Assembly (NCBI GenBank): GCA_944376335.1
Contig: CALWCH010000005.1
Coordinates: 1-64,000, forward strand
DNA length: 64,000 nucleotides
From: an uncultured Clostridia bacterium
GTDB lineage: Bacteria > Bacillota > Clostridia > Christensenellales > Borkfalkiaceae
Reading direction: 5' to 3'
In this document: positions 51,756 through 54,848 of the stretch, one piece after another
How positions within the stretch are numbered: position 1 is the stretch's first letter
How the letters are laid out: each line of letters begins with the position of its first letter
Position numbers and translations under genes: made by a program
The notes under the pieces: model-generated
What the model was told of the DNA's origin: nothing
What the model saw: the letters and a program-made list of their open reading frames with translations, nothing else
Databases searched by the model: none

Positions 51756-52244
51756 TCAGGAAATTTGTTTTCTGATCTCACCGATGGCGTTCTTTTCGAG
51801 GCGGGAGACCTGCGCCTGCGAAATGCCGACTTCCTTCGAGATCTCCGTCTGCGTCTTGCCCTCAAAGTAGCGAAGCTGAAGAATTTTCCGCTCCCGTTCG
51901 TTGAGGCGTTCGAGTGCCTCCCGAAGGGCGACGTGTTCCGTCCAGATCTCGTCGCTCTGCCTCTCGTCGGCGAGCTGGTCCATGAGCTCGAGCGCATCCC
52001 CCGACTTGTTGTAGACGGGCTCATACAGCGACACGGGGTCGGAGATGGCGTCGAGCGCGTAGACGACCTCCCGCTCCCTCAATGAAAGTTCCTCGGCGAT
52101 CCTTGGGATGGTCGCTTCCTCGTCCCTCGCCTCGATGCGTTCCCGCGCCTTCAGGATCTGATACGCCGTATCGCGGATGGAGCGCGAGACGCGCAGCGAA
52201 TTGCCGTCCCGCAAATACCGCTTGATCTCCCCCAGGATCATCGG
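51756..52244 (-). pseudogene. sigG: 3' part of sporulation sigma factor SigG; 5' third absent
   Basis: From the Pro-Met pair at 52244 onward, the frame matches SigG: MILGEIKRYLRDGNSLRVSR (SigG: MIIGEIRRYLRDNN..RVSR), then DPVSLYEPVYNKSGD and the region-4 helix KTQTEISKEVGISQAQVSRL to a normal stop. About 100 codons upstream (regions 1.2-2.2, including the core-binding surface) are missing. The sequence preceding the Pro codon has no sigma homology in any frame. It begins with ATG 52241, or earlier in-frame codons that are not sigma-like. Intact SigG directs late forespore genes; this product should not work alone. It may be one half of a split gene or a pseudogene. Confidence 0.85.
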
Positions 52245-52251
52245 AAATGAC

Positions 52252-52266
52252 TTTCGCACGTCGAAA
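52252..52266. other. inverted repeat at the sigG break, candidate attachment site
   Basis: TTTCG-CACGT-CGAAA: 5-bp arms, 5-nt centre, 8 bp upstream of the point where SigG homology starts. Large serine recombinases use short imperfect inverted repeats around a central dinucleotide; the link is inferred from position only. Confidence 0.3.
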
Positions 52267-52311
52267 CACTCGTAGTTTATTTCCGTTCGGTTTTCCCTCT
52301 CGGATGGACAC

Positions 52312-52340
52312 ATTATACCATATTCCGAGAAATTTTGCAA
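52312..52340 (-). promoter_or_regulatory. sigma-A promoter driving the sigG fragment
   Basis: TTGCAA, 17-bp spacer, TATAAT preceded by TGG (extended -10). Transcription would start near 52304, about 60 nt upstream of the sigma homology. SigG is normally under forespore control, so a vegetative promoter here is unexpected. Confidence 0.75.
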
Positions 52341-52346
52341 CATGAT

Positions 52347-52385
52347 AAAGAGAGCACGTCTCCAAACCGGAGGCAGGCTCTCTTT
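52347..52385 (-). terminator. terminator of the HTH/recombinase-like gene
   Basis: AAAGAGAGC/GCTCTCTTT arms with an inner CTCC/GGAG pair, followed on the minus strand by TTATC. It begins one base after the stop of the gene at 52386. Confidence 0.75.
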
Positions 52386-53231
52386 TTACTCTGTCACACC
52401 CAAAACTACTTTTTCATACTGCGTTTTATTCAGGTAGACCTTTATCTCGCCGTGCTTGAGCTCGACCTTTGTAACCAAACTTCTTACAACATTTTGTTTC
52501 TCCTGCGGCGTCATCACGCCCCATGTATCGGGCAGCGTACGGAGCATCTTTTCATTCTCCTCGATCTGTTTCGTGTAAGTCTGTATTTCTCGTTCTTCTA
52601 CAATTTCACGCTCCAGCTTTTTACAGTCAGCATCGATATCTGCTGCCTGATCCAAAAGCCCATCATCTCCGATTTTTTTGTAGGCATAGATGAGACGATC
52701 GTATTCCTGACGCAATGTATTTTTATAGCTGAAGTCATCCCATTCCCAATCACGAAAGCCCGCTCTGTTCTCAAGATCGTACAACATTCCGATCGTCAAA
52801 CCCGATCCGTATGTTTCACACTTCGGGCCGATATACAGGTAAGAACTTTGTATCCGGCGGCCGGCTTCATCAAAATTCGGCTTGACCTCGATCAGCCGAT
52901 CGTCCTTCAAGCGCCTCATGAGAGATTGTATTGTCCGCTTGGACACGGCGAGTTTTGCGGCAAGCTTCTTTAAGTCCATCGGCTTTCCCCTCCTGCGGAT
53001 GATGTAGTTTATCACCATCTCCCGTCGCTCCTCGGGCGTTGCCTTGCGCATGAGAAATTCGGGCGGAGCAAAGCAGTCATGATTGTCGTAATACTCGGGA
53101 TTTTCGATCTCAATAAACCCGTACTTATGCTTATGAACGGTGTGATCCCCCGGCTTTCCCAACGTATGCTTTCTGTGTTTCTTCTTTCTCTTTATGATTT
53201 CTCCTCCCGTTCCGCCGCTGTTCGATCCCAT
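52386..53231 (-). CDS. HTH protein with serine-recombinase-like C-terminus
   Basis: The 281-residue protein starts with a basic, Gly-rich segment (IKRKKKHRKHTLGKPGDHT). A winged-HTH-like segment follows (about 75-120: MDLKKLAAKLAVSKRTIQSL and RRLKDDRLIEVKP), then a coiled coil (about 180-235). The C-terminus, TPQEKQNVVRSLVTKVELKH and then GEIKVYLN, looks like the end of large serine recombinases. No resolvase catalytic domain (YxRxS) is present. It could be a helper/excisionase or repressor, or a recombinase that lost its catalytic half. It is the only gene between the sigG break and unrelated genes. Confidence 0.5.
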   Translation of the reverse strand: MGSNSGGTGGEIIKRKKKHRKHTLGKPGDHTVHKHKYGFIEIENPEYYDNHDCFAPPEFLMRKATPEERREMVINYIIRRRGKPMDLKKLAAKLAVSKRTIQSLMRRLKDDRLIEVKPNFDEAGRRIQSSYLYIGPKCETYGSGLTIGMLYDLENRAGFRDWEWDDFSYKNTLRQEYDRLIYAYKKIGDDGLLDQAADIDADCKKLEREIVEEREIQTYTKQIEENEKMLRTLPDTWGVMTPQEKQNVVRSLVTKVELKHGEIKVYLNKTQYEKVVLGVTE

Positions 53232-53461: not shown

Positions 53462-54685
53462 TCAGATTCGGCCCAACAGCCAGTCGATGGCATTTATGAC
53501 CTCGATCCCCTCATAGTTGCCCGGCGTAAATCGGTCCAATGTGAGGATCTTCTTGGGGTAATTGTCCCCGATCTTCCGCAAAGGCGCTATTTCGCGCTCA
53601 AACGTTGTCTGCTCTATAAGTGAAGCCGAAACCTGATAGTACTCCAAAATATCGTCCTTCCCCGCGACAAAATCAATTTCGGCATTGCCCGCCTTCCCGA
53701 TATTCACCCGATAGCCGCGCCGCACGAGTTCCAAAAACACGATATTTTCCAGCGAATAGCCCAAATCGTAATTGCATTTGGGGAGCAGATAGCGGCGCAG
53801 GCCTAAATCGACGATATACAACTTCCCGTTCTGTTTCAAAAGCTGTTTGCCCTCCACATCGTAACGTTCCGCGCGATAAAAGATATACGCCTCCGTAAGC
53901 GCCTCGATATAATCATCTACCGTATTGGGCGACACCTTTCTCCCCGATGAAGTGATATAATCGGCGATCTTTTTCACCGAAATTGGGCTGCCGACGCAAT
54001 TTGCAAGAAACTTGGAGATATTCTTCAAAAGTGCGATATCCGTCACCTTCCGCCTGTTGGGGTCTTCTTTGCGGGAGCGGCGCTCCTCCACATCCTTTAC
54101 AATGACGGTATTGTAGATCCCCTCCAGGTACATATCCACCTTTTCTTTCGTCCTGTCCATCGTGGCAATATACGGAAAGGCTCCGTCCGACAGATATTCG
54201 GCAAACAGCCTGTCCTCATCGCCGCCGCCCCGGCTTTCATAGAATTCCGAAAACGAGAAGGGCAGCATATTGATCTCTACATATCTGCCCGACAGCAGCG
54301 TTACAAGCTCGCCGGACAGCAGCCACGAGTTGGAACCCGTGATATACACATCGACATTCTCCTTGATATAGAGGCTGTCTACCACCCTTTCAAACCCTTC
54401 CACCTTCTGGACCTCATCGAGAAAAATGTAGGTCATTTTGCCTCTGCAAAGCCTTTCGGTAAGATAGGCATACAGTGCCCTGTAGTCTTGCAGCACCTCG
54501 TTTTCGAGCTCTTCAAAATTGACGGAAACGATTTGCTCGCCGCCGACCCCGTGCCCTTTCAGATATTGCTTATACAGATCGAGCAGCGTAGATTTTCCCG
54601 AGCGGCGAATGCCCGTAACAACTTTGATGACCTGCTCATCCTTCCATGCGATCAGCTTTTTGAGATACTCTTTCCTCTCTATCAT
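53462..54685 (-). CDS. AAA ATPase with C-terminal DUF4143 nuclease-like domain
   Basis: The 407-residue protein carries Walker A GIRRSGKSTLL (about residue 25), Walker B YIFLDEVQKV (about 90) and a sensor-1 ITGSNSWLLSGEL segment. The DUF4143 domain ends with GNAEIDFVAGK (about residue 335), reminiscent of restriction-endonuclease-like folds. Such ATPases are common accessory genes in gut anaerobes; their role is unknown. ATG 54685 has GGAGG upstream. It is not in an operon: the neighbouring rhamnosidase gene ends at a terminator. Confidence 0.85.
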   Translation of the reverse strand: MIERKEYLKKLIAWKDEQVIKVVTGIRRSGKSTLLDLYKQYLKGHGVGGEQIVSVNFEELENEVLQDYRALYAYLTERLCRGKMTYIFLDEVQKVEGFERVVDSLYIKENVDVYITGSNSWLLSGELVTLLSGRYVEINMLPFSFSEFYESRGGGDEDRLFAEYLSDGAFPYIATMDRTKEKVDMYLEGIYNTVIVKDVEERRSRKEDPNRRKVTDIALLKNISKFLANCVGSPISVKKIADYITSSGRKVSPNTVDDYIEALTEAYIFYRAERYDVEGKQLLKQNGKLYIVDLGLRRYLLPKCNYDLGYSLENIVFLELVRRGYRVNIGKAGNAEIDFVAGKDDILEYYQVSASLIEQTTFEREIAPLRKIGDNYPKKILTLDRFTPGNYEGIEVINAIDWLLGRI

Positions 54686-54848
54686 GGCAAATCCTCCTGC
54701 CGTCAGTATAGCATAGAGGCATAAATTAGTCAATATGTTTTCCTAAATCGGAATTTTTGAAATAGAAATACATGGAATTTTCCGAAAATGGCAGCATTTA
54801 ACGAGCAATTCCTTCCCTGAGCTGCTTAACTTCCAAGAAAAACAAAAA

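Follow-up and report, generated by a model that had tools for sequence, protein, structure and literature searches.

The window analysed here comprises 64,000 nucleotides of contig C5 from assembly G000 (1.75 Mb, 44 contigs, 86.4% complete). It carries the 3' part of sigG beside what appears to be the right end of an integrated element, and the features of this junction are as follows:

51756..52244, minus strand: sigG 3' part, from Pro-Met-Ile-Leu-Gly-Glu through the stop (TIGR02850 positions 91-254)
52168..52244, unstranded: 77 bp identical to C11:1-77; on contig C11 sigG continues into its N-half
52243..52244, minus strand: inferred 2-bp crossover core CC (Pro codon positions 1 and 2), based on attL and attR set against intact sites
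52245..52267, minus strand: attR element arm, beside the core as CATTT/CC (CATT/CC in G004-type elements)
52312..52340, minus strand: sigma-A-type promoter TTGCAA-N17-TATAAT, directed outward from the right end of the element
52347..52385, unstranded: terminator-like hairpin, read by eye, separating the promoter from the stop of the recombinase frame
52386..52720, minus strand: remnant of a sigG-specific serine recombinase, last ~110 aa, 86% identical in protein to its G004 and G138 counterparts
52720..53231, minus strand: 5' portion of an unrelated wHTH gene whose frame continues into the recombinase remnant

A profile search detected stop-free SigG homology at 51762-52250 on the minus strand, covering TIGR02850 positions 91-254 (E 1.2e-65); positions 1-90 are absent at this locus. 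The top NCBIfam matches, NF006071 and TIGR02850, both fall under their cut-offs because the gene is partial. It begins at the Pro codon of ..STYAV/P-MILGE, where the slash marks the break. These results agree with the preliminary description, which had placed an abrupt start of SigG homology at Pro-Met-Ile-Leu-Gly-Glu and an intact frame to the stop.

Beyond the break the sequence is non-sigma and carries, as read by eye, candidates for the terminator and new sigma-A promoter claimed earlier: the hairpin lies at about 52385-52347, and the promoter (52340-52312) has a score reached by 2 of 200 base shuffles. Identical hexamers and spacing, pointing outward, recur in 9 of 18 attR ends, five of these nine being near-identical relatives. 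The adjoining open reading frame (52386-53231) had been described as one HTH/serine-recombinase-like gene. Both parts are present, as a fusion of two partial genes, and the single-gene reading was ruled out: residues ~171-281 share 86% identity with the C-terminal end of a recombinase of ~495 aa from G004 and G138, the match of residues 1-171 is to a wHTH protein from a different family with open frames of 337 (G127) and 358 (G037) codons, and DNA similarity switches at 52720, where the G138 recombinase ends and the G127/G037 wHTH gene starts. The window recombinase is therefore truncated, and its domain content does not place it among the large serine recombinases; the fusion itself could be a misassembly. 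One extra base separates the attR arm from the core in this copy, and the window holds no second copy of the arm at up to three mismatches. Given the truncated recombinase, the arm shifted by one base and an attL that was not found in the bin, we take this copy for a decayed right-end remnant.

Much of the ~43 kb upstream of the remnant is taken up, as judged by eye, by sugar-use genes, with a further serine recombinase near the contig end, and the stretch at 53.4-61.3 kb shows no syntenic block in the five nearest relatives. This upstream DNA may belong to a composite element or stem from a rearrangement. An AAA_14/DUF4143 ATPase that strongly matches the PADLOC candidate PDC-S01 is encoded at 53462-54733 on the minus strand of the window. 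The serine recombinase past the window (594 aa, G000:C5:96852-98636) differs from the one at sigG, and a homologue lies ~3 kb from the G127 wHTH gene.

The other half of sigG was found in the same assembly. A search of G000 located TIGR02850 positions 1-117 at C11:3-353, the extreme tip of contig C11, where the frame runs across the site as ..RFSTYAV-PMILGEIKRYLRDGNSLRVSRSIRD. The N-half ending ..STYAVP, for which a search had been proposed, thus exists; the expectation that it would lie past 64 kb did not stand, as it is on C11 and not further along C5. The two contigs diverge exactly after 52244, the last base common with the intact junction, and because their 77-bp overlap is exact, an intact sigG junction is also present in the G000 assembly. 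We read their parting as an assembly-graph fork at which intact and interrupted sigG share the 3' half, 77 being a common assembler k-mer size. The in-frame junction on C11 may come from a strain that was never invaded. Comparison with intact-sigG relatives, also suggested beforehand, yielded G161, the nearest relative, in which sigG is intact with a C11-type flank upstream and a C5-type flank downstream.

A family survey covered 398 genomes from 18 genera by recombinase alignment search at E<=1e-60. A recombinase of ~490 aa was present in 15 genomes from 4 of the 18 genera, and sigG is cut at the identical Pro codon in all 15 carriers. The search for sigG halves took in 19 genomes, namely these carriers together with G165, G145, G279 and G000. 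Both halves were recovered in 12 of the 15 carriers (G138, which belongs to the window's genus group, G148, G160, G169, G229, G009, G050, G059, G328, G331, G334 and G338), the C-half only in G004 and G106, and the N-half only in G335; G165 has both halves, and its recombinase was not found at E<=1e-60. A sigG C-half search matched 356 of the 398 family genomes, and among the 150 matches listed, nine frames are shorter than 215 aa by hand count (G000, G229, G165, G169, G148, G279, G004, G138 and the second copy of G145). From genome_contigs, 46 loci were returned: 16 belong to the sigG recombinase clade (53% identity or more), 12 of these with a sigG half on the retrieved segment, and the remainder stand at 28% or less.

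The complete arrangement is visible in G169, where one contig carries sigG-N, an element of ~9.2 kb and sigG-C in sequence. Full-length recombinases contain Resolvase, Recombinase and zinc ribbon domains, all three above the Pfam cut-offs in the G169 protein, and residues Y29 L30 R31 V32 S33 T34 D35 are invariant in 13 full-length rows; we take this YLRVSTD-type motif to hold the nucleophilic Ser of a serine recombinase. A PDB search returned three matches, including TP901-1 integrase and TnpX chains. A phage origin found no support: the fused window ORF had no match among phage records, and IMG/VR yielded recombinase relatives only at 27% identity or less. No phage structural genes were found among the nine G169 element genes run against Pfam.

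Several loci depart from the G169 arrangement. The recombinase gene of G059 (L053, G059:C222) faces sigG-N, opposite in orientation to that of G169, so the element layout varies. The two halves in G148 (L219 and L149, G148:C1) share a contig but are separated by 43 kb and stand in an order that a simple insertion would not give, a hint of rearrangement via att sites. Both halves of G279 (L208 and L209, G279:C38 and C25) stop at contig tips, at most 16 bp from the common site, with no element visible. The G145 locus (L147, G145:C14, 8967-14106) contains an intact sigG, then an element-like segment without the sigG recombinase, then a second sigG 3' half. This segment holds a remnant of the attL-proximal gene and an AbiLi-like ATPase, and the two 3' halves differ chiefly at synonymous sites (pS 0.34, pN 0.018); the locus resembles an insertion that was repaired or that neutralised itself.

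In all 13 genomes with both ends, the element sequence that precedes CC at attR is an imperfect inverted repeat of the one that follows CC at attL, matching at 14-21 of 22 positions (mean 16.6). Cross-genome pairs match at a mean of 13.0 positions, and 2000 shuffles gave a mean of 6.4 (sd 2.1, max 13). Because the arms are symmetric around CC, these two bases are the putative core. G004, G138, G160 and G009 form a group from two genera in which element identity is 87.5-94.7% and that of the adjoining sigG 3' halves 74.4-84.9%; the element is more conserved than host sigG in all six pairs (e.g. 92.8% versus 74.4%), which reflects recent movement into the same site. On sequence grounds, the sigG element is recurrent, moves horizontally and crosses genera. 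Among the MAGs, only G000, with its broken recombinase, showed the joined sigG form. Terminal overlaps of at least 24 bp, a sign of excision, were absent among the analysed stretches of 15 genomes, a set without the window itself; G229 showed one 24-bp internal match.

The earlier suggestion that the locus is one end of a sigG-intervening element is supported: an N-half exists in the same assembly, and relatives share the identical cut together with a recombinase dedicated to it and att arms that match. We consider it very probable that a family of sigG-intervening integrative elements with a dedicated serine recombinase exists and that the window copy is its decayed right end. Such elements would use sigG as their chromosomal attachment site: the ~490-aa large serine recombinase would insert the element, as a circle, at CC within a single Pro codon, splitting sigG, and the reverse reaction would restore the gene exactly. 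Catalysis between attP and attB is predicted, one recombinase probably performs both integration and excision, and excision would presumably take place during sporulation.

Candidates for regulation lie at both ends of the element. A related gene is found close inside attL in 7 of 14 left ends, starting at nucleotide 43 past the junction in G160, G138, G009, G165 and G050 and partial in G335. No such gene appeared in G229 (539 bp of sequence), G148, G331 or G334, and the left ends of G338 and G328 are too short to tell. Pfam gave no confident assignment, one member touching HNH_repeat below cut-off. Upstream of sigG, the motif GNATA-N13-18-NATACT, which was picked after viewing the sequences and which we take to resemble sigma-F/G promoters, occurs at 6 of 13 split loci (0.3% in base shuffles) and 21 of 31 intact loci (0.2%). 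We infer that the conserved gene ~43 nt inside attL may be a directionality factor, which would be read from sigG's own forespore-type promoter in the integrated state and from the right-end sigma-A-type promoter in the circular state. A full developmental switch, in which transcription from the sigma-F/G promoter of sigG enters the first element gene in the forespore, sets off excision there and so completes sigG, is a tentative proposal that we regard as rather doubtful. If forespore excision were true, each spore would lose the integrated element, which would have to survive as a circle, by post-germination reintegration or by horizontal spread.

The same anatomy would result from a purely selfish integrative element, and the difference is one of regulation: sigG would be a mere attachment site, excision would follow stress or chance, sporulation would be blocked until exit, and no developmental programme would exist. 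We give this reading about an even chance. The cargo resembles that of defence islands (TIR/NB-ARC/TPR and, below the Pfam cut-off, HipA-like in G169, Fic in G004, the AbiLi-like ATPase in G145), the recombinase is confined to 15 of 398 genomes, and the joined form is absent from the examined stretches of other MAGs, all of which fit a selfish element; the position of the attL-proximal gene just downstream of the sigG promoter in 7 of 14 left ends fits it less well. The state of the split gene also speaks against a mere attachment site. Both halves are open wherever found, with no stops in 18 C-halves (G000, the extra copy of G145 and L103 included) or 15 N-halves (that on C11 of G000 included). 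Pointing the other way, median pN/pS against 30 intact genes in a codon alignment was 0.133-0.409 for C-halves and 0.117-0.392 for N-halves, compared with 0.158 among intact genes, the excess of some halves being confounded because the high values lie in genera distant from the intact set. Again contrary to a purely selfish element, spoIVA is kept in 17 of the 19 genomes searched, above cut-off in 14, the G000 copy among them.

G000 might also carry two sigG 3' ends in one genome instead of two population forms. G145, with its intact sigG, element lacking the sigG recombinase and second 3' half, offers a precedent. The 77 common bases of G000 are identical, whereas the G145 copies have diverged, and we judge this arrangement unlikely.

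The preliminary description had raised a plain pseudogene as its alternative, sigG being broken in a lineage that lost sporulation. The GPR protease model matched 4 of 19 genomes, all g13, and had no match in the other 15, G000 included, as this reading would have it; GPR is missing from G161 with its intact sigG as well, so its loss does not track the sigG split and it was set aside as an uninformative marker of the sigG regulon. An identical codon cut in four genera, open halves, a dedicated recombinase, att symmetry and an intact junction in the same assembly all oppose decay. Besides the N-half and spoIVA, G000 retains sigE-like and sigK-like genes, each above the cut-off of one NCBIfam model and below that of another, and a sigF-like gene below the SigF cut-off. 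A pseudogene is thus very improbable. Least credible of all is an assembly artefact at 52244, the join error proposed beforehand as a refutation: C5 and C11 do part at a graph fork over 77 bp, a common assembler k, but such a fork points to the presence of both junctions in the reads, and the element side of 52244 matches the attR arms and promoter of other assemblies.

The sigG element is of the skin/gin kind; the kind is known, and the target and its implications are new. As described in PMC5025042, the skin element in sigK of C. difficile encodes the serine recombinase CD1231 and the directionality factor CD1234; there, as here, a sporulation sigma gene is split and a large serine recombinase is encoded. 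The candidate directionality factor of the sigG element, by contrast, lies in line with sigG. The gin element in gerE of Bacillus cereus ATCC10987 (28.6 kb, three recombinases, a 9-bp shared sequence) is, according to PMC5595907, likewise a non-phage element with a serine recombinase inside a sporulation gene, its target being a mother-cell regulator gene and not a forespore sigma gene. SPbeta in spsM, vfbin in spoVFB and vrin in spoVR (PMC4191935, PMC6957869) and yin in yabG (PMC10747680) also interrupt sporulation genes and are excised, and these papers describe all four targets as mother-cell or SigK-regulated genes. Nearly all intervening elements sit in mother-cell-specific genes according to PMC6957869, which explains their inheritance; interruption is thought tolerable since excision occurs in the dying mother cell and the spore retains the element (PMC4191935 and PMC6957869). 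A literature search outside subscription papers and preprints found no sigG-intervening element, in keeping with the earlier statement that no skin-type element in sigG had been described.

The forespore sigma gene as target departs from this published mother-cell pattern. The product of sigG works in the forespore, the compartment that passes on its genome, and the sigG element therefore entails heritable excision, carriage as a circle, reinsertion or an outright sporulation block, each of which would be new for the field. The forespore role of sigG is established and is also stated in PMC5025042, where the target of skin is the mother-cell gene sigK and the directionality factor limits excision to the mother cell. 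The element also brings a new serine recombinase, one that has a defined site within a conserved gene, one exact sigG codon being hit in several related gut bacteria. If forespore excision were true, it would be the opposite of the skin logic, in which only the doomed mother cell is rearranged.
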